The notes beneath the pieces were generated by a model that worked only from the letters and a program-made list of their open reading frames with translations, was not told the DNA's origin and ran no database searches. A program made the translations under genes and the position numbers. Below are positions 20,133-44,664 of a stretch of 64,000 nt of DNA, in pieces; position 1 is the stretch's first letter, and the number at the start of each line of letters is the position of its first letter. The stretch comes from Belliella alkalica (GTDB lineage Bacteria; Bacteroidota; Bacteroidia; Cytophagales; Cyclobacteriaceae), in assembly GCF_022549785.1 (NCBI RefSeq), contig NZ_JAKZGO010000004.1, forward strand, positions 111,603 to 175,602, given 5' to 3'.

Positions 20133-20768
20133 ATGATTAAGATACTTATATCCGACGATCATCAGATGTTCATAGATGGGCTCAAATCCATTCTAACCTA
20201 TGCCGAAGATATCGTGGTAGTGGGTCAAGCTATGACAGGAAAAGAAGTTTTGAATTTTTGTGACAACTTCGATGTAGACATCGTCATCATGGACATCAAT
20301 ATGCCTGAAATGGATGGAATAGAAACTACCAAAAAATTGATTTCCAAGCACCCAAAAGTAAAAATTTTAGGACTTTCAATGCATAATGATCGGAGTTTTA
20401 TTTCAGACATGCTCAAGGCAGGAGCGCATGGGTACATTCTGAAAAATACCGGGATGCAAGATTTATTTACTGCAATAAAATCACTCCATGAAGGTGAAAA
20501 TTATCTCGGAGATGAAGTAAAACAAACGCTCTTAAATAGTTTTATCAAAAACCCTTTCAAAACCCAAGTTTCAGAAAAATTGTCAGAAAGGGAGTTTGAG
20601 GTATTGGAATCTATAGCTTCTGGATTGACTACAAACGAAATAGCAGACCAACTTTTTATAAGTAAAAACACTGTAGAAACTCACAGGAAAAACTTGCTAT
20701 ACAAATTGAACGCAAAAAATACTGCTGAATTGGTCAAAAACGCTTACAAAAAAAGATTGATTCAGTGA
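20133..20768 (+). CDS. NarL/LuxR-type response regulator
   Basis: This 211-residue DNA-binding regulator has a receiver domain at 1-120 with the acidic pair D8/D9 in ISDDHQMF, phospho-acceptor D54 in IVIMDINMPEMDG, a conserved switch Ser (LGLSMH) and Lys (ILKN), and a LuxR-type HTH at about 147-211 (LSEREFEVLESIASGLTTNEIADQLF, then SKNTVETHRKNLLYKL). I start at MIKILISDDH. The open frame extends 45 codons upstream but that part is hydrophobic, unlike a receiver, and overlaps the leader. NarL-type regulators pair with HisKA_3 kinases; the only such kinase nearby is at 25802-29944, with four metabolic genes between them. It probably controls the MurNAc/Sus locus. Confidence 0.92.
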   Translation: MIKILISDDHQMFIDGLKSILTYAEDIVVVGQAMTGKEVLNFCDNFDVDIVIMDINMPEMDGIETTKKLISKHPKVKILGLSMHNDRSFISDMLKAGAHGYILKNTGMQDLFTAIKSLHEGENYLGDEVKQTLLNSFIKNPFKTQVSEKLSEREFEVLESIASGLTTNEIADQLFISKNTVETHRKNLLYKLNAKNTAELVKNAYKKRLIQ

Positions 20769-20777
20769 TTCTTGCAA

Positions 20778-20795
20778 ATCCCTATTTTCAGGGAT
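20778..20795. promoter_or_regulatory. Candidate operator, copy 1
   Basis: ATCCCTATTTTCAGGGAT is a dyad (ATCCCT...AGGGAT) located 104 bp upstream of the chosen kinase start. It differs by one base from the site at 30007. It lacks a T-tract, so a terminator is less likely than a protein-binding site. I infer that the adjacent response regulator binds it. Confidence 0.6.
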
Positions 20796-20881
20796 ATTAT
20801 AGGCAAAAATAAAATGGAATTTTGTATGAAGTGAATGAAGTCAGCTTTGGCTTTGCATATTTTCATATTATTCAAAGATCT

Positions 20882-21748
20882 ATGATATTGATTGCTGATA
20901 GCGGTTCTACAAAAACGAATTGGGTATTTTTAGACTCAAAAGGAAGGGAGGTCTTGTCCCGCAAATCTGTAGGGCTTAACCCGTACTTTGTGACTGGTAC
21001 AGAAATAAGAAGTGTAGTGGAGGAGGTATCAGGACATCTTTCTGATAGTATCGAGAAAGTGCTCTTTTATGGTGCTGGCTGTGGTAAGCAAAAAAAGGCT
21101 GATGTCGTTCAAAGTGCGATCCACCTAGCTTTGCCAAACTCCCAAGAAATACAGGTAGAAGGAGACATTCTCGGCGCTGCACGTAGCACGCTTCAGCACC
21201 AAGAAGGAATTTCGTGTATCATAGGTACTGGTGCCAATTCGTGTGTGTATGACGGTAGAAAGGTAGTGGACAATGTGCCTTCATTGGGATATTTGTTGGC
21301 TGATTTTGGTAGTGGAGCTGTTTTAGGAAAGGATACCATAGCGCTCTTGCTTCAAAAAAAGCTACCTATAGAAATTCAAGAAGACTTCTATTCAACTTAT
21401 CAAATGGATGATCGAGAAATTTTGGATCGTCTTTATAATCGGCCGATCGTCAATAGTTTCTTGGCTTCTTTTACACCTTTTTTGCTTAAGCATTCTCATG
21501 TTCCTGAACTTGAATTACTTATTGAGCAAAATTTCAAAAAATTTTTTGAGTATTTTATTTTGTCTTATAAAGTAGACCTTACCAAATCCCCAATTACTTT
21601 GGTTGGGTCAATCGCTTATCACTTTAGAAGCTTTTTGTACAAAGAGGCAGAGAATCATGGATTGCAAATCAGCACAATAGTAAAGAATCCTCTCGATGGT
21701 TTGGTTCAATTTCATACAGCGAATAAATCAAAAGCATTCAGTATTTAA
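20882..21748 (+). CDS. MurNAc/GlcNAc kinase, BadF/BadG ATPase family (MurK/NagK-like)
   Basis: This 288-residue sugar kinase has the ASKHA fold. The phosphate-1 loop IADSGSTKTNWVF is at residues 4-16, CIIGTGANSCVYDG forms phosphate-2, and LLADFGSGAVLGKD contributes to the active site. I start at MILIADSG; the upstream frame to 20822 has no family counterpart. Immediately followed by murQ (24 bp), it most likely phosphorylates N-acetylmuramic acid at O6 in the cytoplasm, as the Tannerella MurK does; a GlcNAc kinase cannot be excluded by sequence. First gene of a murK-murQ-GHL10-symporter run. Confidence 0.85.
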   Translation: MILIADSGSTKTNWVFLDSKGREVLSRKSVGLNPYFVTGTEIRSVVEEVSGHLSDSIEKVLFYGAGCGKQKKADVVQSAIHLALPNSQEIQVEGDILGAARSTLQHQEGISCIIGTGANSCVYDGRKVVDNVPSLGYLLADFGSGAVLGKDTIALLLQKKLPIEIQEDFYSTYQMDDREILDRLYNRPIVNSFLASFTPFLLKHSHVPELELLIEQNFKKFFEYFILSYKVDLTKSPITLVGSIAYHFRSFLYKEAENHGLQISTIVKNPLDGLVQFHTANKSKAFSI

Positions 21749-21772
21749 TGTATACAATTTTAAGATTAATTT

Positions 21773-22573
21773 ATGACTATCACAGAATCAGCCTCAAACT
21801 ATACAAACTTGGAAAAAATGTCCACTGCTGAAATATTGATAAATATCAATAGAGAAGATCAGTTGGTGGCTTTGGCTGTAGAAAAAGTAATCCCTGATAT
21901 AGAGAAATTGGTAGAAATGATGGTGCCAAGGTTTAATAATGGAGGCAGATTGTTTTACATAGGAGCAGGCACATCAGGAAGGCTTGGGATTTTGGATGCA
22001 TCAGAAATTCCACCCACTTATGGTGCAAGCCCAGAATTAGTGACAGGATTGATTGCAGGAGGAGATAGTGCCATACGTAATGCAGTAGAAGGAGCTGAAG
22101 ATGATGCCGATCAGGCATGGATAGATCTTTCTGCTTTTGACTTGACTACCAATGATACTGTTGTCGGAATTGCAGCTTCAGGTAGGACACCTTACGTGAT
22201 TGGTGGTGTTCGTGCGGCTAAGGAAAGTGGAATTCTGACTGCTTGTATTACTTGTAATCCAAGCTCAAAATTGGCCGATTCAGTGGATATCCCAATTGTG
22301 GCTGAAGTTGGGCCTGAGTTTGTTACTGGCAGTACCCGTATGAAATCTGGAACTGCTCAAAAATTAATCTTGAACATGATCAGTACTACCTTAATGGTTA
22401 GACTTGGAAAAGTCAAAGGAAACAAAATGATCAATATGCAGCTGAGTAATGAAAAATTGATAAATCGAGGCATTCGTATGATCTTGGAAGAAGTCCCATC
22501 ATTAAACGAAGAAAAGGCAAAAGAAATGCTAAAAAAATATGGCTCAGTAAAAGCTGTGATCGAAAATTCATAG
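21773..22573 (+). CDS. murQ: MurQ, N-acetylmuramic acid 6-phosphate etherase
   Basis: This 266-residue cytoplasmic lyase splits MurNAc-6-phosphate into GlcNAc-6-phosphate and D-lactate. The SIS-domain signature GAGTSGRLGILDASEIPPTYG appears at residues 64-84, including the catalytic Glu region, with SGRTPYVIGG for substrate phosphate binding and EFVTGSTRMKSGTAQKLILN at the end of the SIS fold. It is slightly short for the family (about 300), because the C-terminal UBA-like tail is brief. It lies between a sugar kinase and a GHL10 glycosidase, which is strong context for peptidoglycan-sugar salvage. Confidence 0.96.
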   Translation: MTITESASNYTNLEKMSTAEILININREDQLVALAVEKVIPDIEKLVEMMVPRFNNGGRLFYIGAGTSGRLGILDASEIPPTYGASPELVTGLIAGGDSAIRNAVEGAEDDADQAWIDLSAFDLTTNDTVVGIAASGRTPYVIGGVRAAKESGILTACITCNPSSKLADSVDIPIVAEVGPEFVTGSTRMKSGTAQKLILNMISTTLMVRLGKVKGNKMINMQLSNEKLINRGIRMILEEVPSLNEEKAKEMLKKYGSVKAVIENS

Positions 22574-22666
22574 AATCCATTTTTGGATTTGGTTTATATA
22601 TGATAAAATCTTGTCCATCATTTAAAATTAAAGAATTTAATTATCAAAATTAACAATATAACCAAA

Positions 22667-24229
22667 ATGACCACCAGCCGATTTTCATACATCATACTGA
22701 CTTTTTTGTTGATGATTTCTCTAGCAATACAGGAATCACATAGTCAAGATTATCCTAAAAGAGAGCTGCGAGCCGCTTGGATTGCGACAGTGGAAAACAT
22801 TGACTGGCCTGATGAAAAGGGACTCAAAGCACAAGAGCAGAAGGAACAATACGTGTTGCTCTTGGATCAATTGAAGGCAGCTGGAATGAATGCCATCATT
22901 ATGCAGATACGGCCAACTGCTGATACTTTTTACCCATCGAGCTACGAACCATGGTCTGCCTACCTTACAGGACATCAAGCGCAAGCTCCACAGGCATATT
23001 ATAACCCATTGACATTTTTGATTGACGAAGCAAAAAAAAGAGGAATGGAGTTTCATGCTTGGTTCAATCCATATAGAGCCAGCATGAGTAAAGACTTCGA
23101 ACCATCTGAAGCGCATCCCTTGGTGAAAAACCCAGAGTGGTTTGTCAAATATGGAGGCAAATGGTACTACGATCCGGGAATCCCTGAAGCTAGAGAGTTT
23201 GTGTTTCAATCAATAATCGAAGTTGTACGTCATTATGATCTTGATGCAGTGCATTTTGATGATTATTTTTATCCATATAAAGTTCCAAATGAGGAATTCC
23301 CAGATCGAGCATCTTTTGAAAAGTATGGAAAATCAGATTTTGAGCATATTGATGATTGGAGAAGAGAAAATGTGGATTTTTTCGTAGAAGAGCTTGGAAA
23401 AAGAATCAAAGAAGAAAAAGCATTTGTAAAATTTGGAATCAGCCCATTTGGCGTATGGAGAAACAGTGACAAAGACCCCAAAGGTTCGGACACCCAGGCT
23501 GGAGTGACCAATTATGATGATCTCTATGCTGATGTATTGAAGTGGCTTGAAAATGGGTGGATTGATTATATTACACCACAATTGTATTGGCATATTGGCT
23601 TTGACAAAGCTGAGTATAAAACACTTGTGAAATGGTGGGAGGAAAATTCCTTTGGAAGACATTTGTACATTGGCCAAGGAGTATATAGAGTTGGAGAAAA
23701 AGGCTGGGAAGACCCTGAAGAGATTTTTAACCAAATCAATTTTAATAGATCATTTGAGAATGTACATGGAAGTATGTACTTTTCTGCTAAGACCATAGCC
23801 AATAATAAGAACGATGTAAATAAGCAATTGGCTCAGGTTTATCGTTATCCTGCATTGATTCCCACGATGGGATGGTTAGAAGAAGAAAAACCGGAGCCTT
23901 CTGTAATCATCAATCTTTTTGGAAGTCCTGACACAGGTATTGAATTGACATGGAAGGATCAAAATCCAGGGAATCAGTCATATTATGTGATTTATAGAGT
24001 GGAGGGGGAAGAATCGATCGATATCGAAAATCCGAAGAATATTTTGGCAATTGTACAGAAATCAAATTACCCAATTCAACAGTGGAGAGATGAAAATGTG
24101 GAGAAGAGAAAGAGTTATACCTATCAAATTACCTCTGTAAATCGACAGCATCAAGAAGGTGATATCAGTAACACTGTAAAATTGAAAACGAAAGGGCAAA
24201 GAAGATTAGTTAGAATTGAGAAGTTATGA
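22667..24229 (+). CDS. GHL10-family (DigH/YngK-like) glycosidase, secreted
   Basis: This 520-residue secreted enzyme has a signal peptide ending near HSQD and a glycosyl-hydrolase-like 10 TIM barrel (about 28-400): RELRAAWIATVENIDWP, MNAIIMQIRPTADTFYPS, GMEFHAWFNPYRAS, AVHFDDYFYPY and WIDYITPQLYWHIGF are the family's conserved strands, with acidic residues in the DDYFYPY motif. A fibronectin-like C-terminal domain follows (420-515). Escherichia coli DigH of this family cleaves peptide-free peptidoglycan strands, which fits the adjacent murK-murQ. Its TGA overlaps the symporter ATG (ATGA), so the two are coupled. Confidence 0.88.
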   Translation: MTTSRFSYIILTFLLMISLAIQESHSQDYPKRELRAAWIATVENIDWPDEKGLKAQEQKEQYVLLLDQLKAAGMNAIIMQIRPTADTFYPSSYEPWSAYLTGHQAQAPQAYYNPLTFLIDEAKKRGMEFHAWFNPYRASMSKDFEPSEAHPLVKNPEWFVKYGGKWYYDPGIPEAREFVFQSIIEVVRHYDLDAVHFDDYFYPYKVPNEEFPDRASFEKYGKSDFEHIDDWRRENVDFFVEELGKRIKEEKAFVKFGISPFGVWRNSDKDPKGSDTQAGVTNYDDLYADVLKWLENGWIDYITPQLYWHIGFDKAEYKTLVKWWEENSFGRHLYIGQGVYRVGEKGWEDPEEIFNQINFNRSFENVHGSMYFSAKTIANNKNDVNKQLAQVYRYPALIPTMGWLEEEKPEPSVIINLFGSPDTGIELTWKDQNPGNQSYYVIYRVEGEESIDIENPKNILAIVQKSNYPIQQWRDENVEKRKSYTYQITSVNRQHQEGDISNTVKLKTKGQRRLVRIEKL

Positions 24230-25671
24230 GTGAAGGATTGATTTTTACTGTAGTAGTCATTTACTTTTTGATGCTGATTTTGATTAGCTATTTGACTTCT
24301 AGAAAGTCAGACCAAATGACTTTCTATACAGCAAATAGAGAATCGCCTTGGTTTTTGGTAGCTTTTGGAATGATAGGTGCGTCACTTTCGGGTGTCACCT
24401 TCATTTCAGTTCCAGGTGAAGTCGCGGCCAAGAACTGGACATATTTGCAATTTGTGATGGGGAATATGGTTGGTTACGCTTTGATTGCGACTATTTTGAT
24501 TCCTTTGTTTTACAATATGCAATTGATATCGATATATGAATATTTGCGAAAAAGATTTGGAATTCGAGCCTACAAATCAGGCTCTATTTTTTTTATAATC
24601 TCTCAAACAATTGGAGCTTCTTTCAGGCTTTTTCTCGCAGCGACAGTTCTTCAGATCGGTTTTTTTGATGCTTTTGGCGTGCCATTTTTTCTTACAGTGT
24701 TGATTACATTGTTGTTGATTTGGCTATATACAGTGAGTGGAGGTGTCAAGACAATTGTTTGGACAGATACCTTACAGACTACATTTCTATTGGCGGCAGT
24801 CATGATCACGATTGTTGTGGTAAGTAGGCAGCTTGGAATGAATGGTAAAGAAATCATTGCGCTTGTTTCACAAAATGAAATGTCGTCAGTTTTTGAATGG
24901 GACATCCTCTCGGACAGAAACTTTTTCAAGATGTTTGTTTCTGGAATGTTTATTACCATAGCGATGAATGGCTTAGATCAGAATGTTATGCAGAAAAACC
25001 TTACATGCAAAAATAAGTCGGAAGCTCAAAAAAACATTTTCTGGTTTTCTATATCTTTCTTTTTATCGACTGTACTTTTTCTTGGTTTGGGGGTTGTGTT
25101 GTACTATTTCGCTAAAGTAAATCAAATAAATATACCTACAAGTACTGATGAGTTTTACCCGCTTTTGGCTCTCAATAATCTGGGTACGCTGATAGGAATA
25201 GCCTTTATGCTTGGTATTATAGCGGCAGCATTTTCCAGTGCTGACTCTGCATTGACTGCCCTGACCACTTCATTTTGTGTTGATATCTTAGGCCTACCGA
25301 CAAACAAAAAATCATCAAAACAGAATGGGTTAACCAGGAATTTAGTGCATATATGGTTTTGTCTTTTGGTATTTGTAGTGATCGTAGTTTTCAATATTCT
25401 CAACGATACCAGTGTAGTGAGTGCTGTTTTCAAAGCTGCTGGTTTTACTTATGGCCCTATTTTGGGATTGTTTGCTTTTGGACTCATAAGCAAGCGAATA
25501 GTAAGAGATAATTGGATTCCTTTAGTTTGTATTTTGAGTCCGGTTCTATCGTTCATTTTGGATTCGAACAGTAGCGAATGGTTTAATGGATATCAATTTG
25601 GTTTTGAAATTTTGTTAGTCAATGCTTCTTTTACTTGGTTGGGTTTGTTTATTTTCAGTAGACCTAAATAG
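24226..25671 (+). CDS. Sodium:solute symporter (SSS family), probable amino-sugar importer
   Basis: This 481-residue inner-membrane protein has about 13 hydrophobic segments and SSS signatures: a short periplasmic N-terminus, TFISVPGEVAAKNWTYLQFV, the YEYLRKRFG loop, LYTVSGGVKTIVWTDTLQT and AAFSSADSALTALTTSF (the sodium-binding TM8 serines). The start overlaps the stop of the GHL10 gene. SSS transporters next to N-acetylneuraminate or amino-sugar genes usually import that sugar, and SSS-type carriers occur next to murK-murQ in other Bacteroidota. I therefore infer uptake of MurNAc or a GlcNAc-MurNAc sugar; the substrate is not proven by sequence. Confidence 0.9.
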   Translation: MSEGLIFTVVVIYFLMLILISYLTSRKSDQMTFYTANRESPWFLVAFGMIGASLSGVTFISVPGEVAAKNWTYLQFVMGNMVGYALIATILIPLFYNMQLISIYEYLRKRFGIRAYKSGSIFFIISQTIGASFRLFLAATVLQIGFFDAFGVPFFLTVLITLLLIWLYTVSGGVKTIVWTDTLQTTFLLAAVMITIVVVSRQLGMNGKEIIALVSQNEMSSVFEWDILSDRNFFKMFVSGMFITIAMNGLDQNVMQKNLTCKNKSEAQKNIFWFSISFFLSTVLFLGLGVVLYYFAKVNQINIPTSTDEFYPLLALNNLGTLIGIAFMLGIIAAAFSSADSALTALTTSFCVDILGLPTNKKSSKQNGLTRNLVHIWFCLLVFVVIVVFNILNDTSVVSAVFKAAGFTYGPILGLFAFGLISKRIVRDNWIPLVCILSPVLSFILDSNSSEWFNGYQFGFEILLVNASFTWLGLFIFSRPK

Positions 25672-25801
25672 CTGTGTGCTGTGGTAAGCATCCTTGACAA
25701 TATGCGTCATCGTAGATCATGTTGCTGCGGATATTCAAAAAAAGGTTGAAAGTGATGCGATTTTTAGAGTAATTGTAACTTCTGTTATGAATATAGGTGT
25801 C

Positions 25802-28800
25802 ATGAAAGGAAGATCTAAGCAAGAGAATAATAGGATTAGTGAGAAAAATTGGATCCTGTTGGATACCATGGTCAAGGATATGTTGAGAGGTGAAAGCAAC
25901 AGTCCTAGTGGTGTGCTAATCTCAGGTTATGCTGGCTCTGGAAAAACATTTTTGGTTGAGAATTTTCTGTCAAGTATGAGCGGTCAGCTGCCAGTTTTAA
26001 CAGCAAGACACTACGTCAATCAGAAGAGTATTCCTTATTCTGGATTTCGATATGCGATTTCTAAATTCCTCAGTCAATTGTACAGTCAGTTAACTCCTCA
26101 CCATTTCACTGATTTTTCCAAAAAACTCATGTTTGAGCTTGGAGAAGGGTATCTTTTAGTCCTAGATTATTTCCCCGAATTGTCTTTGATATCAGAGGCC
26201 AATCCTGTGCACAAAAATTTCTCTGTTCCCAAGATTGAGAATCAAGTATATCCCTTATTAAGTAAGATTTTTAATTTTCTTAGTACTTACTTTGAGCAGC
26301 CTGTTATTCTGTTTACTGATAACTTACAGTGGATGGATGGTTCGGGGGTAAACTTGCTCAATTATCTTTTATCTGATTTAGGAACAGAAAAACTCATCTG
26401 GATAGGTGCCCAGAGGACTCCTTTAGATCAATTGACCATCTCAAAAAGAATAATTGATAATCTGAGTTTTGAGAAAAAGCATATCTATCATATCGAAATC
26501 AAAGAACTTTATTTGGATCAGAGTGCTGCTTATGTTGAGAGTCAACTTGGAGGTAAATGTTCGCCAGAATTGATTGAAACTTGTCATAATCTTAGTCAGG
26601 GAGATTTTTTCCTACTGCAATTAATTGTAGAAAACCTCAAAAACACATCATTGATATCTGTGGACAATGGGATGTTTCATGGACAAGTTCAAGAAATAAT
26701 CGGGGCCTTTGATGGTTTGGATAAGCAAAACATTCTTAACATTCACATGGAAATGTTGAGTTTGGAAGCCCAGGAAGTAGTGATGCTTGTAGCTTGTGCG
26801 GGTAGTATATCCAAGCGCCTTATTCTTCAGTGGTTGTCAAATGAACATGCTAAGCTTGACTTGATCCTAGAACAAGGTTCTAAATATGGCTTATTAACAG
26901 TCAGCCATGAAGTAGTTACTATATCACAGTTGCATTTGGGAGAATTGATCTACCAAGGCATGGATGTCACCAAAACAGATAAGCTACACTATCAATTAGC
27001 AAAATTACTTCATGGGGAGTACAGTCACCATGGAAATCTAGAAGATGTTATTTTAGCTGCCAACCATCTGAACAAGGGTCTTTCTGAAATTAGAGTAAGA
27101 GGAGAGATGAAGTTTGGTGCAGCATTAAATTTCCATGCGGGGATAATTTCGAAGCAGAAAAAAGTATTAGAGCAATCAAAAGAATTTTTCAAAGCATGTA
27201 ATATTCTCCTCTCTGAGTGCAAATGGGAAGATGTAATAGAGATGACATGGAGTTCTTATCTAGAAATAGCAAGAACTGAATATGAACTTGGCGAATATGA
27301 TTTTGCAGAAATCCATCTCGACTTTTTGTTGGAGCGCTTTTTCACTCCCGAAAAAAGGATAGATCCATACCTTTTGAAAATAATAATTAACAATCATTTG
27401 GGTAGGTATAGGAAAGTTGTACAAATCCTCAAAGAAAGTCTAAACGAACTGGGACTTCAAATTCCTGAAAATAAGCAACAACTTGATTTCGAAATCAACA
27501 TGCTAAAAAAGGATTTGATAGAACGTGAAAAAGGTAAATCTGTAATAGGAAAAGCTAATTTTAATCACAAAAACAAGCATATCTTGGATTTACTCTATGT
27601 AGGTGGAATGGCGCTTCATCATACATCAGATCTTATGATGACCTGGGCTTCTTTGCAGATAATATTGATGTCTGACAAACCAGATATGCCCTCAGCAGTC
27701 AAGGCTATTGGATATGTCTCTTTTGCAAGGATGATGATCATAAGTGGGCAAATTTCCAAAGGTTTTGAATTCGGAACTACAGGTTTGAATATTAATAAGG
27801 AGCTAGGTGATTTGAACTTACGCTGTAGGGTATATGGTGTCTTTGCTTTTTACATCAAAACATGGAAAGACCCATTTTCAGAAAGCTTCGTTTTGATAGA
27901 AGAGGGGATTGAAGCTGGAAAAAGATCTGGTGACCACATAGGAGAATATATTCTAAGCACTCATTTATTGAATCTCAAATTCATATCAGGGAGTCCGTTA
28001 AGTCAGGTTTTGGATTATAATTTTGAAAAAATATATCCAGCAAATGAGCTTACTTATTATATAACGCATTACCAAAAAAGCTTAATTGATTACCTGACGG
28101 GCAAAGACACTATTTTCTCAATTCCTAGACTTCAAGGATCTTCTCTTGCAGCCCAATTGACAATCCAAGAGGAAAAATTTTACAGGTTTTATGTTTGGGG
28201 AAGATATTACTTTTTATTTGGGTTTTACAAATTGGCTGAAAAAGCTGCAAATGAAGCCGATCAGAATAGGAAGCTGCAGGAGGGTTCCCCTCTTGTTCCT
28301 GCCAATCTATTGATAAGATTTTTATCTATTACGCAATGTTGGAATAGTTATGATTTGAATCAGAGAGACGATCTTTCTGTAACTCTAGATGATATTTTGA
28401 GATCCTTTGCTCTTTGGGCAAAATACGCTCCTGCTAATTATTCCAGAATGTATTTTTTGCTCAAAGCGGAGTTAAAAAGAATTCAAGGAAAATCTGCTGA
28501 AGCAACTAAAGCATTCAAACAAACACTAAGTCTTGTAGACGGAGATTGCTTTTTGGAAGGAGTAGCCAAAGAGTTATTTGCTAAGCATTTATTATCTATT
28601 CACCTAGATTCAAAAAGCGCACGGGTCTTGCTCGAAGGGGCAATTGCAGCCTTCAATCAATGGGGTGCCATAGCAAAAGTAAATCAAATAATTCAACAAT
28701 ATCAGGGCATCTTACTCAAGCCAGATCAAGCTTGGGAAATTGATATTGAAACGATTCAACAGGAGCTGAGTGGAGATTTGGAAGTCACTTCATTGGTTAG

Positions 28801-29944
28801 AAAACTTATGGTTTTGTTATTGAGATTTTCTGGATCATCAAGAGTGGTAGTGAAAATGAAAAAGGAAAATGATAAATTTTTATCTTCTGATAGCCTGACT
28901 CTACTCAACACGTTGGAGTACCAAGATATTCCTGAATCATTGATTTTGTTTTCCCACAAAACCCAAACTACTTTGATGATCGATGATGTAGATTTGGAAA
29001 TGTCCTCTACTGAGGTCAATATGCTAAAATCTAGAGGGGTGAAGAGCTACTTGATATTGCCAATCAACATAACAGGTCATTTGTCTATGGTAATTTACCT
29101 GGAAAGCTCTTTTGCAAAAAGTTGGTACAATAAAAACCGACTAAAATGGACACGCATCACTTCCAATCAAGGTGCAATAATTATAGAAAATGCGATGATC
29201 CATGAACAAACCATCCAATTAAATAATGAGATTACTAATGAAATGTATGAAAAACAGCGGCTTTCTAAGCTTGTTGAGCAGCAGCAAAACAATCATTTAA
29301 AGGATTTGATGGAAATTCAAGATAAGGAAAGAAATAGAATAGCCAGTGATCTCCATGATAGTTTGGGTTCAATGTTGTCTACAGTTAGACTCAAACTCAA
29401 CGGGATTTATGAGAGAAATTTCCGAAATATTGAACAAGAAAAGTCTGAAGAATACAATGATGCGCTCGGAATGCTTGATGAATCAATCGAAGAGCTTCGG
29501 AGGATTGCACACCATATGGCACCGGCATCTTTGAAGAAATTTGGATTAAAAATCACCCTAGAATCATTCGTGGAAAATATCAATTCCTCGGGATTATTGA
29601 AAATCAATTTGCAAATTTTAGGTTTTTCTAAAAGAATCCCTGAAAAAATTGAAATTTCGATATTTAGAATTTGTCAAGAGCTATTGCAAAACACGATGAA
29701 GCACGCCAATGCCACCCATGCTTCATTACAATTGATTAGACATTTGGATAGGATCAATGTTTTAATTGAGGACAATGGTAAAGGTATGGATACTGCCACA
29801 ATTGTACAGGGATTAGGTTTTATGGCTATCCAATCCAAAGCAAAACTTTTAGGGGGCACATTTGAAGTTGATAGTTTCCCCAATAGAGGTACGACTATTA
29901 TTATTGATATTCCTTTAAAAAACGAGAAGAAAGCTATGTTTTGA
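25802..29944 (+). CDS. Giant AAA-ATPase / TPR-like / GAF / HisKA_3 sensor kinase
   Basis: This cytoplasmic signalling protein has about 1380 residues. The N-terminus carries an AAA_16-type ATPase with Walker A GYAGSGKT (42-49) and a Walker B-like VILFTDNLQWMDG. Then come about 700 helical residues resembling TPR/MalT-like repeats, a GAF-like domain (about 980-1130), a coiled coil, a HisKA_3 dimerisation domain with the phospho-His near 1184 (ASDLHDSLGSMLSTVRLKL) and an HATPase (EDNGKGMD, GLGFMAIQSKAKLLGG). I start at MKGRSKQENN; the frame is open back to 25694 and M32 (25787) is an alternative. It has no membrane segment, so the signal is intracellular, perhaps a sugar bound by the helical repeats. 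The likely partner is the NarL-type regulator at 20133. Confidence 0.88.
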   Translation: MKGRSKQENNRISEKNWILLDTMVKDMLRGESNSPSGVLISGYAGSGKTFLVENFLSSMSGQLPVLTARHYVNQKSIPYSGFRYAISKFLSQLYSQLTPHHFTDFSKKLMFELGEGYLLVLDYFPELSLISEANPVHKNFSVPKIENQVYPLLSKIFNFLSTYFEQPVILFTDNLQWMDGSGVNLLNYLLSDLGTEKLIWIGAQRTPLDQLTISKRIIDNLSFEKKHIYHIEIKELYLDQSAAYVESQLGGKCSPELIETCHNLSQGDFFLLQLIVENLKNTSLISVDNGMFHGQVQEIIGAFDGLDKQNILNIHMEMLSLEAQEVVMLVACAGSISKRLILQWLSNEHAKLDLILEQGSKYGLLTVSHEVVTISQLHLGELIYQGMDVTKTDKLHYQLAKLLHGEYSHHGNLEDVILAANHLNKGLSEIRVRGEMKFGAALNFHAGIISKQKKVLEQSKEFFKACNILLSECKWEDVIEMTWSSYLEIARTEYELGEYDFAEIHLDFLLERFFTPEKRIDPYLLKIIINNHLGRYRKVVQILKESLNELGLQIPENKQQLDFEINMLKKDLIEREKGKSVIGKANFNHKNKHILDLLYVGGMALHHTSDLMMTWASLQIILMSDKPDMPSAVKAIGYVSFARMMIISGQISKGFEFGTTGLNINKELGDLNLRCRVYGVFAFYIKTWKDPFSESFVLIEEGIEAGKRSGDHIGEYILSTHLLNLKFISGSPLSQVLDYNFEKIYPANELTYYITHYQKSLIDYLTGKDTIFSIPRLQGSSLAAQLTIQEEKFYRFYVWGRYYFLFGFYKLAEKAANEADQNRKLQEGSPLVPANLLIRFLSITQCWNSYDLNQRDDLSVTLDDILRSFALWAKYAPANYSRMYFLLKAELKRIQGKSAEATKAFKQTLSLVDGDCFLEGVAKELFAKHLLSIHLDSKSARVLLEGAIAAFNQWGAIAKVNQIIQQYQGILLKPDQAWEIDIETIQQELSGDLEVTSLVRKLMVLLLRFSGSSRVVVKMKKENDKFLSSDSLTLLNTLEYQDIPESLILFSHKTQTTLMIDDVDLEMSSTEVNMLKSRGVKSYLILPINITGHLSMVIYLESSFAKSWYNKNRLKWTRITSNQGAIIIENAMIHEQTIQLNNEITNEMYEKQRLSKLVEQQQNNHLKDLMEIQDKERNRIASDLHDSLGSMLSTVRLKLNGIYERNFRNIEQEKSEEYNDALGMLDESIEELRRIAHHMAPASLKKFGLKITLESFVENINSSGLLKINLQILGFSKRIPEKIEISIFRICQELLQNTMKHANATHASLQLIRHLDRINVLIEDNGKGMDTATIVQGLGFMAIQSKAKLLGGTFEVDSFPNRGTTIIIDIPLKNEKKAMF

Positions 29945-30006
29945 CAGGGTTTTCTTTGTGAAAATTTTTAAAATTAAATCAAAGTGATTTTTGGTGATTT
30001 GAGAAT

Positions 30007-30024
30007 ATCCCTGTTTTCAGGGAT
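30007..30024. promoter_or_regulatory. Candidate operator, copy 2
   Basis: ATCCCTGTTTTCAGGGAT matches the site at 20778 in 17 of 18 bases and is a dyad. It lies 62 bp after the kinase stop and 159 bp before the susC ATG. No T-tract follows. I infer shared control of the murK and susC units. Confidence 0.6.
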
Positions 30025-30182
30025 GGATAGCAAGCTTTTTTTGAAAAAATTTACAAGGTGTAAAAGAACCCAATAATCTGTAAAAAAACGACTTACAAGA
30101 TTCTTTGTCTTTTTATGCAAAACCTAAACAATAAACCTATTAAATCAACATCTAATTTAAAACTCTATAAAATTAATTTCAC

Positions 30183-33100
30183 ATGAAGAAACTTTTATTG
30201 CTTGGTTCAATGTGGGGTCTCTGCTTTTTCTTAGTTAGTTTTCAAGCTCATTCGCAGCAAAGAGAAGTAACGGGAGTAGTAACCTCGTCAGATGATGGAC
30301 TTACTCTTCCAGGGGTAAGTGTACTAGTAAAGGGAACTAGTCAAGGCGTGACTACCGACATTGATGGTAATTACAAAATAATGGTAAATAGGGGTGATGT
30401 ACTCCGCTTTAGCTTTATTGGTATGATAGCCAAAGAAGTAGTAGTAGAAAATCAAAGTATCATTAACATGATCTTGGCTTCTGATGCAAAGACTCTTGAA
30501 GAGTTCGTTGTAGTAGGTTATGGTACACAAAAAAGAAGTGACCTAACTGGGGCAATTACAACTGTTGACACGGAAGTATTGCAGTCACGTCCAATCACAG
30601 ATGTAGGAAGGGGTTTACAAGGCACGACTCCAGGTTTGACGATTACTTCTCCAAGTGGACAGATCGGGAGAAATCCCAACATCAGGCTGAGAGGTATGAC
30701 AGGAACTTTAAGTAATTCTGCAGGTGCTCAGCCATTGATTTTGGTAGACAACGTAGAGATAGAAAGTCTTCAGCTAGTCAATCCAGAGGATATTGAAAGT
30801 ATTTCTGTTCTCAAAGATGCTGCTGCTTCTTCGATATATGGATCTAGAGCTGCTTGGGGTGTTATTTTGATCACCACAAAATCTGGTGTGAAAGGTGACA
30901 AACCGAGAATATCTTATTCCAATAACTTTTCTTGGAATACGCCCACATATGCACCAGTGATTGCCAATGCAGCCGATGGGGCAGAGATGGCTTTTAGAGC
31001 TCTTCAAAGAACCAATCCATCTACCAACGTTTTCAGTGCTGTAGGAATGGCATTTGATCAAATAGGTATTCAAAAAATGAGAGATTGGGAGGCGCAATAT
31101 GGAGGTCAAAACTTAGGGCCTGAAATGGTAATGGGAAGAGATTTTGAGGTAAGGGATGGAAGACTGTTTTTTTATAGATCTTGGGATCCTGCAGAGCTGT
31201 TTATGAGACAATGGACTCCTCAGCAAAAGCACGATATTTCAGTCTCCGGTGGAACTGATAAGACCAAGTACTATCTTGGAGCTGGTTATTTAGGCCAAGA
31301 GGGTGTGCTAAAAGTGAATCCAGATGAATTTAACCGATACAACTTGAACTTCAGTGTGAGTACTGAGGTGAATAAATGGCTCGAAGTAAGAGCAAAAGTA
31401 CTCTATTCAGAGACACAATTTACCCAGCCATTCAACTTTGTAAGCGAAACATATGACCCTTGGTATTATATTTTTAGATGGCAAGCTGTTTATCCATACG
31501 GAACATATGAAGGTAGGCCTTTCAGAAACTCAATCTCAGAGGTAGAGCAAGCCAAAATGAACAATGAAAACAGCACAATGTCAAGGATCAATTTGGGAAC
31601 TACCATAAGGCCAGCAAAGGGATTGAGCTTTAATTTTGATTATACATATAGCAATAATAATTCCCAGCTTCACCAGACAGGAGGTATCTTGTCAGCGTAT
31701 AACTTTTGGGCAACAGGTGCAAACCTTATTTATGCCCCATACAGTGGGCCTGCTTTCAATAGAGTACAATATGATTCTAACCTAAGCAAAAGAAATACTG
31801 GTAGGGCATTTGGTACTTATGAACTGGATTTAGGAGAAGATCATTCATTTAAATTTATGGCTGGATCTGATGTTGAGACTTTTGAATACTGGGCGCATAT
31901 GTCACAGAGAAGGAATCTTATGGATCCAGATAGAGGAGAGCTTTCACTGGCCACAGGTGATATGTTTGTCAGCGGAAGTAGAAATGAATGGGCTACTTTG
32001 GGTTTTTTCAGTAGAATGAACTATTCCTATAAGAATAAATTACTTTTGGAATTGAATGGTAGATATGATGGTTCATCTAGACTTTCTCCTACTCAAAGGT
32101 GGGCATTCTTCCCATCGATGTCAGCAGGATATGTGATTACTGAAGAAAAATTCATGCAACCTCTAGAGTCTGTACTTTCATTTATGAAACTAAGAGCTTC
32201 TTATGGATCCATCGGTAACCAAAATGCCTTTTTGGGAGATATCTATAGAATCATGAATTCTAGCAACTCAGGCTGGTTGGTAGGAAATGAAAACATGCTC
32301 ACTGTGGCTACACCAGGAGCTCTGCCTGCTGCATTGACATGGGAGACTATCAGTACTTTGGATTTTGGTTTTGATGCGAGATTCTTCAAAGATAAGTTTG
32401 GGGTTACTTTTGACTGGTATAGAAGGGTTACAAGTGACATGCATAGTGCTGGTGTTGTATTACCTGCTTCTTTTGGTACTGCAGCGACCAAGCAAAACCT
32501 TGGTGAGCTTCAGACCACCGGCTGGGAGCTTGCAGTAGATTATTCGCACACTTTTAATAATGGACTTAGATTGAATTCTTCTGTAATGCTATCTGATTTC
32601 AAAGAAGTGATCACTGATTTTGCTGACAATAGAGGTGTACTTTCAAACAGGCCAGGAAGAGTATTAGGAGAAATTTGGGGTTTTGAAACTGACAGATTCT
32701 TTACAGCAGACGATTTTGTAAGAGATGCAAACGGTGAGTTTGTATTAGATAACGGCAGATACATCATGGCTGATGGAGTTCCTAATCAATCTTTCTTCGA
32801 AAGTGGATGGTTTTTCTATGGACCGGGTGATGTGAAATACAAAGATTTGAATGGTGATGGTAAAATCGATAGAGGTACCAATACTATCGATGATCCAGGA
32901 GACATGCGAGTTATCGGAAACTCAACACCTAGATATCAATATGGTATTAGATTAGGAGCAGATTTCAAAGGTTTTGACTTAAGCTTCTTTGTTCAAGGTG
33001 TAGGAAAAAGAGATTTCTGGGCTAATGGACCATTATTCGTACCAGGGTTTAGACCTGGGGAAGCTTGGTATCAGCATCAATTAGATTATTGGACACCTGA

Positions 33101-33440
33101 GAATCCAGATGCATTCTATCCAAGGCCTACAGATCATGGTCAGTCAAATAATGCTAGGAATTTCCTTCCTCAAACTAAGTATTTGTTGGACATGTCTTAC
33201 ACTAGATTGAAGAATGTGACTTTCGGTTATACCATTCCAACATCCTTGTCTCAAAGAATAAAAGTGGATAGGTTGAGGGTTTATTTCTCTGGGGAGAACT
33301 TATTTGAAATTGATAATTTGAGGCTGCCAATAGATCCTGAGACAGAGTATACTCCAGCAGGTTTGAATGATGCCGCTACTTTCGGTAGAGTTTACCCATT
33401 CCAAAGATCAATTTCATTTGGTGTACAAGTAACGCTTTGA
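30183..33440 (+). CDS. SusC/RagA-family TonB-linked outer-membrane transporter
   Basis: This 1085-residue outer-membrane receptor has a signal peptide ending AHSQQ, a carboxypeptidase-regulatory-like domain (VTGVVTSSDDGLTLPGVSVLVKG, 28-100), a TonB box-like stretch after EEFVVVGYGTQ, a plug with SISVLKDAAASSIYGSRAAWGVILITTK (the Sus signature) and a long beta-barrel ending in ...SISFGVQVTL. There is no STN domain, so it is not wired to an anti-sigma factor and is more likely controlled by the adjacent two-component system. It pairs with the SusD gene 86 bp downstream. Cargo is inferred as peptidoglycan-derived oligosaccharide or muropeptide. Confidence 0.95.
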   Translation: MKKLLLLGSMWGLCFFLVSFQAHSQQREVTGVVTSSDDGLTLPGVSVLVKGTSQGVTTDIDGNYKIMVNRGDVLRFSFIGMIAKEVVVENQSIINMILASDAKTLEEFVVVGYGTQKRSDLTGAITTVDTEVLQSRPITDVGRGLQGTTPGLTITSPSGQIGRNPNIRLRGMTGTLSNSAGAQPLILVDNVEIESLQLVNPEDIESISVLKDAAASSIYGSRAAWGVILITTKSGVKGDKPRISYSNNFSWNTPTYAPVIANAADGAEMAFRALQRTNPSTNVFSAVGMAFDQIGIQKMRDWEAQYGGQNLGPEMVMGRDFEVRDGRLFFYRSWDPAELFMRQWTPQQKHDISVSGGTDKTKYYLGAGYLGQEGVLKVNPDEFNRYNLNFSVSTEVNKWLEVRAKVLYSETQFTQPFNFVSETYDPWYYIFRWQAVYPYGTYEGRPFRNSISEVEQAKMNNENSTMSRINLGTTIRPAKGLSFNFDYTYSNNNSQLHQTGGILSAYNFWATGANLIYAPYSGPAFNRVQYDSNLSKRNTGRAFGTYELDLGEDHSFKFMAGSDVETFEYWAHMSQRRNLMDPDRGELSLATGDMFVSGSRNEWATLGFFSRMNYSYKNKLLLELNGRYDGSSRLSPTQRWAFFPSMSAGYVITEEKFMQPLESVLSFMKLRASYGSIGNQNAFLGDIYRIMNSSNSGWLVGNENMLTVATPGALPAALTWETISTLDFGFDARFFKDKFGVTFDWYRRVTSDMHSAGVVLPASFGTAATKQNLGELQTTGWELAVDYSHTFNNGLRLNSSVMLSDFKEVITDFADNRGVLSNRPGRVLGEIWGFETDRFFTADDFVRDANGEFVLDNGRYIMADGVPNQSFFESGWFFYGPGDVKYKDLNGDGKIDRGTNTIDDPGDMRVIGNSTPRYQYGIRLGADFKGFDLSFFVQGVGKRDFWANGPLFVPGFRPGEAWYQHQLDYWTPENPDAFYPRPTDHGQSNNARNFLPQTKYLLDMSYTRLKNVTFGYTIPTSLSQRIKVDRLRVYFSGENLFEIDNLRLPIDPETEYTPAGLNDAATFGRVYPFQRSISFGVQVTL

Positions 33441-33526: not shown

Positions 33527-35236
33527 ATGAAAATCAAGATATTTGCAATTTTACTTACTACCCTAGTATTGGTAAGCTGCCAGGATGATTTCTTGGAAAG
33601 GCCACCACTAGATAGGCTTACAGATGAGACTTTCTGGGCCAATGAGTCCAATGTCAGGACTTTTGCATGGGGATTTTATCCTCAGTATTTCTCAGGATAC
33701 GGGTCAGGATTCACTTGGGGAAGATTCTTCTCAGGACAATCATTGAACGATGACTTCTCGCCTAGCAGTCCGCCGCAATTCAGATTACAGCCAGTTACTG
33801 CCGCCACTGCTGCATATTGGAGATTCTCTTGGGTGAGAAAAGCTAACCTTTTCCATGATAGAATTCAGACTGTTCCGATGTCTGAAGAAGCAATCAATCA
33901 TTGGTCAGGTGTTGCCAGGTTCTTTAGAGCTGTAGAATACGCACAATTGGTACAGCAGTTTGGTGATGTGCCGTGGTTTGGAGAAGAAGTGGATGATCAG
34001 AATCCAGAGCAACTTTTCAGACCTAGAGATCCTCGTGATTTTGTAATGGACAGGGTATTGGAAGATTTTGAATATGCAGCGCAATTTGTTAGACTTTCTG
34101 ATGGAACACCAAAGCAGTCTGTAAACAAAGATGTAGTATTGGCGTATATGTCCCAATTCATGCTTTTTGAAGCATCATGGCAAAAGTATCACCTAGGAAA
34201 TAACGAAAAGGCAGTTAAATATTTTCAAGCTGCTAAGTCGGCTGCTGATCAATTGATCCAGTCAGGCAGATATTCTCTTGGTAATTATCGTGAAGTGTTC
34301 AGCTCAGTAAATTTGGCAGGGAATCCGGAAGTGATTCTGTTCCGCCATTATGAAGCTGGAATGTTGACGCATGCCTTGATGAGTTATAATAACATGGAAC
34401 CCCAAACAGGTGTTTCTAAAAATGCAATTGACTCTTACTTGGCATCTGATGGTTTGCCTATAGGTGTTTCTCCTCTTTACCAAGGTGATAGAACTAGAGA
34501 AGCTATTTTCGCAAACCGTGACCCTCGTATTAGTGAAACTTTCGTGACTTCTCAGTATAGATTAAATGGTATTTCTCCAAATTTCAGTACCACCGGTATT
34601 TCTACACACAAATATCTTAATGAATCATTGAGATTGTTACCTGAAGGAAGCTCGAGCTTGAATATTATTGATTCTCCAGTTATGAGATACGGTGAAGTCT
34701 TGATAAATTATTTGGAAGCAACAGCCGAGCTTGCATCTTTGGGAGGAACAGCCCTTTCTCAAGCTGATTTGGATAAATCTATCAATGTATTGAGAGCAAG
34801 ACCAGGAATTAATCTTCCTGCTGTCACATTGGTTGGGGACAGATTTGCTGCAAATGGTGTAGCCTATGATGATCCTCAGAGAGACCAAAGTGTTTCATCT
34901 ATTCTTTGGGAAATTAGAAGAGAAAGAAGGATTGAACTGATGATGGAAGGCTTTAGGTTGAATGACCTAAGAAGATGGAAAAAGTTGGAATATGCAGATA
35001 CTCAAGCGAATCCTACGATCAATAGAGGTACATGGGTAACTAGAGCAGAATTTCCAAACTTACAAAGTGCTGTAGTCCTTTCTGAAGGTAATGAAGGTTA
35101 TATCATACCAGCAAATGTTGCTGCTGCACAAAGAATCTTCAATAACCCAAGAGTATATCTTGATCCAGTTCCAATCGATCAAATAGCACTCTATGAAGAA
35201 AATGGAGTTGTATTGACTCAAAACGAAGGGTGGTAA
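33527..35236 (+). CDS. SusD/RagB-family surface glycan-binding lipoprotein
   Basis: This 569-residue surface lipoprotein has a signal peptide with lipobox LVSCQDD, then the SusD fold: DDFLERPPLDRLTDETFWANESN at the start, the TPR helices (NLFHDRIQTV, RFFRAVEYAQLVQQFGDVPW, RDFVMDRVLEDFEYA), and a C-terminal RagB region with YGEVLINYLEATAEL and IRRERRIELMMEGFRLNDLRRW. It caps the SusC barrel and captures substrate. A terminator follows, so the susCD pair ends here. Confidence 0.95.
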   Translation: MKIKIFAILLTTLVLVSCQDDFLERPPLDRLTDETFWANESNVRTFAWGFYPQYFSGYGSGFTWGRFFSGQSLNDDFSPSSPPQFRLQPVTAATAAYWRFSWVRKANLFHDRIQTVPMSEEAINHWSGVARFFRAVEYAQLVQQFGDVPWFGEEVDDQNPEQLFRPRDPRDFVMDRVLEDFEYAAQFVRLSDGTPKQSVNKDVVLAYMSQFMLFEASWQKYHLGNNEKAVKYFQAAKSAADQLIQSGRYSLGNYREVFSSVNLAGNPEVILFRHYEAGMLTHALMSYNNMEPQTGVSKNAIDSYLASDGLPIGVSPLYQGDRTREAIFANRDPRISETFVTSQYRLNGISPNFSTTGISTHKYLNESLRLLPEGSSSLNIIDSPVMRYGEVLINYLEATAELASLGGTALSQADLDKSINVLRARPGINLPAVTLVGDRFAANGVAYDDPQRDQSVSSILWEIRRERRIELMMEGFRLNDLRRWKKLEYADTQANPTINRGTWVTRAEFPNLQSAVVLSEGNEGYIIPANVAAAQRIFNNPRVYLDPVPIDQIALYEENGVVLTQNEGW

Positions 35237-35689: not shown

Positions 35690-38650
35690 ATGAAAATTAA
35701 TTTAATCAGTATACTTTTTTCAACTTTGATCATTCTCGGAGCCAGCAATGCTCATGCTCAAGACAAAACAATCATCCCTCCACCTTTCATGGGTCAAGGA
35801 AGTGATTGGGTTGAGGCTACGTTTCAATCTATGACTTTAGATGAGAAAATCGCTCAATTGATTATGATTCCTGCTTACTCAAATAAGGATCAGGTTCATG
35901 TTGATTCGATTTCAAAGCTAGTCAGTAAGTATCAAGTCGGAGGAATCATTTTTTTCCAAGGAGGTCCAGTCAGGCAAGCAATCATGACCAATAAGCTCCA
36001 AGAAAAAGCAAAAATCCCGTTGATGATTTCAATAGATGGAGAATGGGGTTTAGGCATGAGGTTGGATAGTACGATGAGCTTCCCATATCAAATGTCTCTT
36101 GGAGGTATTTCGGATGAAGGATTGATTTATCAGATGGGAAAAGAGATCGCACTGCAATGCAGAAGGGTTGGCGTTCATGTGAATTTTGCCCCTGTAGTGG
36201 ATATTAATAACAATGTAAATAATCCCGTTATCGGATATCGCTCGTTTGGAGAGCAAAAGGAAAATGTCGCTAGCAAAGCTTTGGCCTACATGAAAGGAAT
36301 GCAAGACAATAAGGTGCTAGCGAATGCCAAGCATTTCCCAGGTCATGGGGATACCAATGTAGATTCTCACTATGGATTGCCTGTCATTCATTTTTCCAAA
36401 ATCCGAATGAATGAAACTGAATTATACCCTTTCAAAAAGCTTTTTGATGAAGGTTTGGGAAGTGTGATGGTCGCACACATGAATATCCCTGCCTATGATG
36501 CTACCCACAACCTTGCTTCAACGCTTTCGAAGCCAATCGTGACAGATTTATTGAAAAATGATCTCAAATATGAGGGACTTGTCTTCACAGATGCACTAAA
36601 TATGCAGGGTGTTGCCAAATTCTATGAACCTGGAGAAGTGGATATGAAGGCGCTTTTGGCTGGTAATGACATGCTTCTCAATACCATGAATGTCGAGAGG
36701 ACTATCTTCGAAATCAAAAAAGCCATTGATAGAAATGAAATTACGATTGAAGAAATTGAAAATCGGGTAAAAAAAGTCCTTCAAGCGAAATATTGGCTTG
36801 GTTTGGATAAGTATGAACCGGTTGATTTGGAAAATCTCTATGAAGATTTGAACAATCCAAAAGCTCAAATGCTGAACAAAAAGTTGACGGAGGCTTCGAT
36901 TACTTTACTTCGAAACCAAGATGACATTGTACCTATCAAAAATCTTGAAAAGCATAAAATCGCTGCTTTGGCAATTGGAACGGATGAAGAGACCATTTTT
37001 CAAAAGAGCCTAGTAAGATTTGGGGAAGTTGATCGTTTTTTCATCTCCCATAATGCAAGTATCGAGGAATTTCAAACATTGATGGAGCAGTTGGAAGATT
37101 ATACGCTAGTGATAGCGGGTGTTCACAAACTTCAGATGAGGGCTGGGGCTTCTAGATTTGGGGTTACTTCTGAGACTAAGTTTTTTCTCAAAAAACTAAT
37201 AGCACAAAAACCAACAATAGTGTCTGTTTTTGGGAATGTCTATAGTTTGGCAGAATTTGATCAGCTTAGCAAAGCGAGTGCAGTATTCGCTACATACCAA
37301 GAGTCTGAGAATGCCCAAGACATTGCCTCGCAGATTATTTTTGGTGCATTGGGAGCAAAAGGAAAGTTGCCAGTAACAGTCAATGCTGATTTCAAAGTCG
37401 GTGATGGACTAGAGACAAGTGGAGGCTTGAGACTTGGATATTCCTCACCAGAAGAGTTCGGTATGGATTCAAGGGATTTTGATGGGATTGAGACTTTGGT
37501 CAATGAAGCTATTACAAATGAAGCCATTCCAGGTGCACAGATATTGATAGCAAAAAGTGGAAAGGTCATCTTCCATGAATCATTTGGGATCCACACTTAC
37601 GAGAGTAATGTGAAGGTAGCAAATGACCATCTTTATGATTTGGCATCTGTAACAAAGATCAGTACAAGTTTGGCGGCATTGATGAAGCTAAAAAGCGAAG
37701 GGAAATTTGATGAAAATGGCACTTTGGGAGCGTTTTTGCCAATGGCAAGAGGCACCAACAAAGAAAACCTCAAATACACAGATATCCTCACCCATCAGTC
37801 TGGATTGCAAGCTTGGATTCCATTCTGGAAGGAGACTGTCAGGAAAAATGGCAAATTCAAATGGAGTACTTTTAAGCATGACCAATCAGATAGATTTCCG
37901 ATTTTAGTAGCTCAAGATTTATACATCCATAAGAAATACAAAGAAAAGTTGTATCGGCGAATTTGTGACTCACCAGTAGGTGAACAAGGGAAGTATGTCT
38001 ACAGTGATCTGTCATTTATTCTAGCACCTGAAGTCATTAAAGCGATCACTGGGGAGGATTTTGAAGATTATTTACAAAAAAATATTTACAAAAAGATAGG
38101 TGCAAACTCCCTTACTTTCAATCCTTATCTCAAGTATGATTTAGATCAAATCGTACCTACAGAATATGATTCACTTTTCAGGAAACAATTACTACATGGC
38201 ACTATCCATGATGAAGGTGCTGCCATGCTGGGCGGAGTGAGTGGACATGCTGGTTTGTTTGGAAATGCAAATGATTTGGCAAAATTGATGCAATTATACC
38301 TGAATGATGGTATTTATGCTGATCAGGTGATCATTGGCAACAATGTAGTGAGTGAGTTTTCGAAATGTAAATTCTGTGAAGAAGGAAACTACAGGGCTTT
38401 GGGGTTTGATAGACCGAGAGTTCCGGGAAGTGAAAATGGCAATGCAGCAAAAGATGCTCCTGCTTCCAGTTTTGGACATACAGGTTTCACAGGAACTTAT
38501 GCTTGGGTAGATCCTGAAAATGAGCTTGTCTATATTTTCCTATCCAATCGCGTGAATCCTACAAGGGAAAACTCCAAACTTTCCCAATTGGGAACAAGAA
38601 CCAAAGTCATGCAGGTAGCTTATGATGCGCTATCAAAAAGCGCTCAATAA
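35690..38650 (+). CDS. NagZ-type GH3 N-acetylglucosaminidase fused to AmpH-like serine hydrolase
   Basis: This 986-residue secreted fusion has a signal peptide ending AHAQD. Residues about 40-370 form a GH3 barrel with the NagZ signature KHFPGHGDTNVDSH (K214, H219, catalytic D225-S-H227 dyad) and nucleophile D301 in FTDALNMQG, so it should remove N-acetylglucosamine from muropeptides or chitin-like ends. A GH3 C-terminal domain follows (400-580), then a class C beta-lactamase/AmpH-like domain with S653-V-T-K656, Y771-S-D773 and H930-T-G932, suggesting a D,D-peptidase or esterase. Both halves would act on peptidoglycan in the envelope. It follows the susCD pair and leads the phosphoesterase gene by 26 bp. 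Confidence 0.92.
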   Translation: MKINLISILFSTLIILGASNAHAQDKTIIPPPFMGQGSDWVEATFQSMTLDEKIAQLIMIPAYSNKDQVHVDSISKLVSKYQVGGIIFFQGGPVRQAIMTNKLQEKAKIPLMISIDGEWGLGMRLDSTMSFPYQMSLGGISDEGLIYQMGKEIALQCRRVGVHVNFAPVVDINNNVNNPVIGYRSFGEQKENVASKALAYMKGMQDNKVLANAKHFPGHGDTNVDSHYGLPVIHFSKIRMNETELYPFKKLFDEGLGSVMVAHMNIPAYDATHNLASTLSKPIVTDLLKNDLKYEGLVFTDALNMQGVAKFYEPGEVDMKALLAGNDMLLNTMNVERTIFEIKKAIDRNEITIEEIENRVKKVLQAKYWLGLDKYEPVDLENLYEDLNNPKAQMLNKKLTEASITLLRNQDDIVPIKNLEKHKIAALAIGTDEETIFQKSLVRFGEVDRFFISHNASIEEFQTLMEQLEDYTLVIAGVHKLQMRAGASRFGVTSETKFFLKKLIAQKPTIVSVFGNVYSLAEFDQLSKASAVFATYQESENAQDIASQIIFGALGAKGKLPVTVNADFKVGDGLETSGGLRLGYSSPEEFGMDSRDFDGIETLVNEAITNEAIPGAQILIAKSGKVIFHESFGIHTYESNVKVANDHLYDLASVTKISTSLAALMKLKSEGKFDENGTLGAFLPMARGTNKENLKYTDILTHQSGLQAWIPFWKETVRKNGKFKWSTFKHDQSDRFPILVAQDLYIHKKYKEKLYRRICDSPVGEQGKYVYSDLSFILAPEVIKAITGEDFEDYLQKNIYKKIGANSLTFNPYLKYDLDQIVPTEYDSLFRKQLLHGTIHDEGAAMLGGVSGHAGLFGNANDLAKLMQLYLNDGIYADQVIIGNNVVSEFSKCKFCEEGNYRALGFDRPRVPGSENGNAAKDAPASSFGHTGFTGTYAWVDPENELVYIFLSNRVNPTRENSKLSQLGTRTKVMQVAYDALSKSAQ

Positions 38651-44315: not shown

Positions 44316-44546
44316 TTTTTGTACAAAATAATAATTACCATGTACAAAGTACTTGGCGCTTAGGTTTCTGATGGTATTAATAGAGAAAGATAAGCATTTT
44401 GGTTGTATGCATTCAACTTCTATTAAGCTACGAATATAAGATTTCTTGTAAGGATAGAGGTGGAGAAGGTTGACGAAAAATGGTATTGTATTGATGGGTG
44501 TTGAGGCAGCTCTTTGTCGATTTCACTATAGCTTTTTGATTCTAAT

Positions 44547-44645: not shown

Positions 44646-44664
44646 GTTAATAAAGACTGTTGCC

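Follow-up and report, generated by a model that had tools for sequence, protein, structure and literature searches.

Two near-identical 18-bp dyads stand in front of a murK-like gene and a susC gene of Belliella alkalica, and the question raised by this locus is what acts on them. In the window, by which we mean the whole 64,000-nt stretch of DNA analysed, dyad 1 lies at 20778..20795 and dyad 2 at 30007..30024, both on the + strand, as candidate operators of a murK unit and a susC unit, respectively. They are identical in 17 of 18 bases, as the original prediction had stated, and that prediction took them for operators of a NarL-type response regulator encoded beside the first of them. We consider it highly probable that the dyads are operators of this adjacent regulator and serve a kinase-driven activation of both units. 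What the computation established is where the sites are, how well they are conserved, that they keep a constant spacing to a -7 box, that they co-occur with the kinase-regulator pair, and which domains the proteins contain; from these we infer the binder, the activation, the phosphorelay, the operon limits and the signal.

The dyads are rare in their own genome. A scan of the window at up to three mismatches found two matches against 0.25 expected, a number reached by one of 100 shuffles, and a third copy at this threshold was absent from the 64 kb, in agreement with the earlier inspection by eye. The arms alone (ATCCCT-N4..8-AGGGAT) occur at two places in the window and at none in 100 shuffles. 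Genome-wide (105 contigs, 4.95 Mb) only dyads 1 and 2 have fewer than three mismatches, so that the many unrelated sites that would speak against an operator were not found; a further 16 places have exactly three. As the total of 18 at up to three mismatches equals the 18 of a reversed-pattern control, these 16 look like chance. The arms pattern fits four places in the genome, namely the two dyads and two places with quite different centres, against one place for its reversed control. When the motif was lengthened with either the half-site or the -7 box described below, each form fitted dyads 1 and 2 only, at up to three mismatches genome-wide. A 16-base sequence also occurs twice in the window without any difference, at 45867-45882 and, 121 bp further on, at 45988-46003; the first copy is at the end of an ORF at 44470-45873 and the second just behind that ORF.

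The genes around the dyads are all on the + strand. The regulator gene (20133..20768; Response_reg and GerE domains) is followed by dyad 1 and by the first gene of unit 1, a murK-like sugar kinase gene (20882..21748), whose product scores 34.4 bits with PF01869, just above the cut-off of 31.5, and has NagK as its lone NCBIfam match, far below cut-off. Next come murQ, encoding an N-acetylmuramic acid 6-phosphate etherase (21773..22573; TIGR00274 325.3 bits, cut-off 302, and also above the PRK05441 cut-off), a gene for a GHL10 glycosyl hydrolase-like protein (22667..24229), a sodium:solute symporter family gene (24226..25671) and the gene of a cytosolic histidine kinase of STAND ATPase-TPR-GAF-HisKA_3 make-up (25787..29944). 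Behind dyad 2 lie the first gene of unit 2, encoding a SusC/RagA outer-membrane transporter (30183..33440), a susD-like gene (33527..35236) and a gene for a GH3 glycosidase fused to a beta-lactamase-family domain (35690..38650), the membership of which in the unit is assumed. A relative of this fusion, at least partial, is present in 15 of 29 compared clusters, the stretches of which differ in length. By its gene content, which includes in MurQ the MurNAc 6-phosphate etherase that marks a MurNAc cluster, the locus is presumably one for scavenging of MurNAc or peptidoglycan. Elsewhere the genome has a second murK-like gene, 34% identical and without a dyad site, as the genome has two sites only. 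Upstream of the cluster, at 12610-15768, the window encodes a hybrid histidine kinase with a 7TM N-terminus and GAF, receiver and Hpt domains.

We then asked how the sites are distributed in the family, using 390 genomes sampled from it and a set of 146 relatives. An orthologue of the kinase (E ≤1e-100) is present in 30 of the 390, and one of the regulator (E ≤1e-75) in exactly those 30. The bare dyad at up to two mismatches was tried as a marker and rejected as too permissive, being present in 93 of the 146 relatives, own genome included. Instead we used the extended motif GTGAT-N8-ATCMCYNTTTTCAGKGAT, derived from seven of the 30 pair genomes and scanned at up to one mismatch. It was found in 30/30 pair genomes (23/23 of those held out) and in 2/360 others, G263 and G288; G222 owes its count to a site that lies on another contig, before a SusC gene other than that of the cluster. 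Without mismatches the figures are 28/30 and 0/360, at exactly two mismatches ten more of the 360 pair-less genomes have the motif, and the reversed control gave one match across the genomes. The frequency of the bare dyad among the relatives is the one point in favour of a chance similarity or a dispersed repeat, an explanation which the split of 30/30 from 2/360 by the extended motif and the fixed promoter spacing make hardly credible.

Conservation was also seen in front of the orthologous genes. In 30/30 pair genomes the 420 bp ahead of murK contain a same-strand dyad with at most one mismatch, and in 30/30 so do the 420 bp ahead of susC; this is the inverted repeat conserved before regulon genes that is expected of the operator of a NarL-type dimer, and together with the co-occurrence it lends support to the presumed role of the dyads as operators of the regulator. 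It should be noted that the 30 genomes, from nine genera, are not independent, as 10 share one genus and 6 another, and that some of the clusters of the 29 other pair genomes compared are cut by contig ends. The susC gene is opposite in strand to the kinase gene in 20/30 genomes, and there too the site heads susC; it is likewise present in eight genomes where the best SusC match is only 26-42% identical. In relatives with rearranged genes, too, the dyad stays ahead of murK and susC.

The same comparison bears on the location of the dyads behind the two genes of the presumed two-component system, which had been read as a sign of an operator. The location itself is correct for the window, but it is incidental, since of the 30 genomes only G000, G005 and G006, the pair genomes of the same genus as the window, have the susC site immediately behind the kinase gene. 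It also bears on a reading in which the dyads are RNA hairpins or intrinsic terminators at the ends of the regulator and kinase genes. Both dyads do lie shortly behind a stop codon in the window and hairpins can form (z-scores -1.24 and -1.63 on the + strand, -2.86 and -2.51 on the - strand), but neither dyad was listed by a terminator scan and a T-run directly after the stem is absent at both, one beginning 11 nt past dyad 2. As the site moreover stays with murK and susC in the relatives, and a terminator has no use for a constant spacing to a -7 box, we regard this reading as very unlikely.

To describe the promoters we collected 88 sites and removed four of them, namely two that overlapping stretches had contributed twice and those of G263 and G288, so that 84 remained. 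In the window each dyad is embedded in the arrangement GTGAT-N8-dyad-N25-TTT(G/A). TTT[GA] lies exactly 25 nt past the dyad in 68/84 sites and not in 16/84, whereas at 113 other offsets (offset 25 and three either side left out) the mean was 1.5 sites and the maximum 15. In the held-out genomes alone the count is 53/67, and by gene it is 28/30 for murK sites and 30/30 for susC sites. This matches the Bacteroidota promoter box, given in the available text of PMC9723704 as TAnnTTTG at -12 to -5. The predicted -7 boxes are found at 20817..20824 for murK, at the fixed offset with TTTG at 20821-20824, and at 30046..30053 for susC, with TTTA at 30050-30053 (both + strand). Of the TA of the box, the A is present in 74/84 sites and the T in 1/84. 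By column the dyad and the -7 box are conserved and most of the spacer is not. A scan for sigma-70-type promoters returned 34 sites against 35.6 in shuffles and was set aside.

When the TTT[GA] offset is combined with the published position of the box (PMC9723704, available text), the dyad is predicted to span about -51 to -34 with its centre near -42.5, the place of the -33 element. A class II activator site has its centre near -41.5 and replaces the upstream promoter element, and the predicted placement of the dyad would be of this geometry. Promoters without a -33 element usually need an activator. The position by itself does not prove activation, and the adjacent regulator might bind the dyads and repress; yet the dyad precedes the -7 box and sits at the -33 place, where TTTG is seen in 1/84 sites and TTG in 12/84, and we therefore hold repression to be unlikely.

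The GTGAT element, which we regard as a third half-site, is at 20765..20769 in operator 1, overlapping the stop codon of the regulator gene, and at 29994..29998 in operator 2 (both + strand). It lies exactly 13 nt ahead of the dyad in 61/84 sites and not in 23/84, and at any other position in the 40 nt upstream of the dyad it was seen in 1/84. The element is also retained in relatives in which the regulator gene is not adjacent and what comes before it is a different gene or a longer gap. In G222 the murK promoter carries a pair of dyads separated by 25 bp. The proximal dyad (two mismatches) is at the standard distance from the box and the distal one roughly covers the place of GTGAT, which hints at the half-site being a second dimer site in minimal form.

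As to the binder, the regulator is of the NarL/FixJ type, with a receiver domain (E 6.9e-28) and a C-terminal GerE helix-turn-helix domain (E 4.4e-21), and its best PDB sequence matches, over the full length, are VraR and NarL. From inspection of the sequence we take D54 to be the phospho-acceptor aspartate. As the regulator is confined to the same 30/390 genomes as the kinase, and its recognition helix is nearly invariant among the 30 orthologues, it appears to be the best candidate binder of the dyads. Co-occurrence cannot single out the regulator, because the whole block travels together: SusC at E ≤1e-250 was found in 6/146 relatives, all kinase-bearing, and none among the 146 offered the natural deletion of a susC orthologue without the kinase.

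In line with this lack of specificity, and with the presence of the architecture in a few pair-less genomes, the dyads could be operators of some other regulator than the adjacent NarL-type protein. The own genome has two sites, both in the cluster, which is unlike a global factor. Further, in G263 and G288, which lack the pair, the full architecture lies directly downstream of a different NarL-type regulator gene, the product of which is 30-31% identical to the window regulator and has a similar recognition helix. We find it improbable, hence, that a regulator other than the adjacent one acts on the dyads.

The kinase gene probably starts at ATG 25787, which fits the orthologues better than the listed TTG 25694; the latter is probably too early. 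No clear membrane segment was detected in the protein, the highest 19-residue mean hydropathy being 1.46. The STAND NTPase and TPR superhelix of a STAND sensor are both present, the former as AAA_16 and supported by a structural model of residues 1-1150 (mean pLDDT 80.8, pTM 0.66, 25 sequences), which consists of an ATPase part, a long helical superhelix and a GAF-like end. By our own reading of the secondary structure there may also be a winged-helix part. In a fold search the best PDB match was the STAND-TPR protein 6mfv (E 1.1e-10, query TM-score only 0.21); a chain of 8bob, an entry titled on the maltose system, which we take to be MalT, was matched at low TM-score, and many other matches are general TPR or ATPase proteins. 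These best matches liken the kinase to MalT and the STAND-TPR proteins. MalT carries its own DNA-binding domain, whereas the output here is a histidine kinase that would act on a separate regulator. A cytosolic sugar is a plausible signal for such a kinase.

In 24/30 genomes a same-strand cluster gene precedes the kinase gene at a distance of at most 200 bp, and in three genomes a dyad lies shortly before the kinase gene, at 108 bp in G222 (facing susC), 133 bp in G375 and about 62 bp in G444 (two mismatches). In G374 it begins 363 bp behind murK, and in G300 and G347 no dyad was seen within 9 kb upstream of it on the stretches compared. From this placement, the kinase is likely to be under positive feedback in the majority of the 30 genomes, though not in every one.

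Taken together, we propose that an intracellular signal, probably a peptidoglycan-derived sugar, would act on the cytosolic STAND histidine kinase, which would phosphorylate the NarL-type regulator. The dyad, with two 7-bp half-sites flanking TTTT, would be occupied by a regulator dimer, and the GTGAT half-site 13 nt upstream by one more subunit or dimer. Given the predicted dyad centre near -42.5, at the place of the -33 element, the bound regulator may bring RNA polymerase to promoters in which the -7 box is the main element. Both the murK-murQ-GHL10-symporter-kinase unit and the susC-susD unit would then be activated and the kinase output would rise, the outcome being uptake and catabolism of MurNAc-type peptidoglycan fragments. 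If so, the two sites would define nearly the whole regulon of a two-component pair, in a group of bacteria for which few operators are known, link a soluble STAND kinase with the probable scavenging of peptidoglycan, and put an activator site at the predicted place of the -33 element. Among the papers listed on this theme, no title or abstract opening describes the operator or the kinase-regulator pair.

Several known systems resemble parts of this arrangement. ComA of B. subtilis, also of the NarL type, is described in the available text of PMC4797271 as binding as a dimer to a 6-bp inverted repeat with a 4-nt spacer, accompanied by degenerate extra elements. The inverted repeat of short elements and the extra half-site of the same kind are shared, but the extras of ComA form a direct repeat downstream, while here a single half-site is upstream and the dyad abuts the promoter; in the 84 sites there is no conserved second element between dyad and -7 box. 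In Tannerella forsythia the two-component protein GppX, going by the available text of PMC5388701, activates a muropeptide and MurNAc scavenging operon, and is thus a Bacteroidota case of such control; GppX is a one-polypeptide hybrid with a putative AraC-like DNA-binding part, unlike the separate NarL-type regulator and soluble kinase found here. The murTKQ operon of the same species has a sodium-symporter-type transporter, a MurNAc kinase and a MurQ etherase (PMC5790795, in the part available), to which the present locus adds SusC/SusD, glycosidases and a dedicated two-component pair. Likewise, cluster-linked regulators and conserved motifs before susC/susD are features of the HTCS/SusR-like regulons of Bacteroides thetaiotaomicron (PMC3878776, in the part available). 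An HTCS identity was ruled out for the present system, as the genes are separate, the DNA-binding domain is GerE and not AraC-type, and the kinase stays at its hydropathy maximum of 1.46.

In some pair genomes the sites extend to further genes. They precede two Amidase_2 genes in G053, a SusC gene in G222 and, in both G375 and G444, deacetylase-GH9 units; in G191 a site lies between aceK and an Amidase_2 gene, facing away from the latter, and G084 has the same layout. The amidases fit with peptidoglycan use, while GH9 and SusC are not specific for it.

The site code is not exclusive to this kinase-regulator pair. Downstream of the G263 site (region L227:5478-8244; that of G288 is L228:3248-4618) lie a Pvc16_N gene and a tail-sheath gene, resembling a contractile injection system. 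Of 15 dyad sites in pair-less genomes, on 13 stretches (L064-L076) chosen among the matches listed, four, namely three of G017 and one of G009 (up to two mismatches), carry TTT[GA] at offset 25 when read in the listed orientation. We tentatively suggest, at somewhat less than an even chance, that a soluble MalT-like STAND kinase senses a cytosolic peptidoglycan sugar and drives a NarL-type activator occupying -33, and that the code GTGAT-N8-dyad-N25-TTTG/A is common to several NarL-type regulators of the family which serve unrelated surface machinery. G009 has one more close dyad match outside the 15 sites. The G017 sites with the box are on L066, L068 and L069, and the one on L068 precedes the gene of a large MBG/CHU_C-type protein, which is followed by a PorP/SprF gene.
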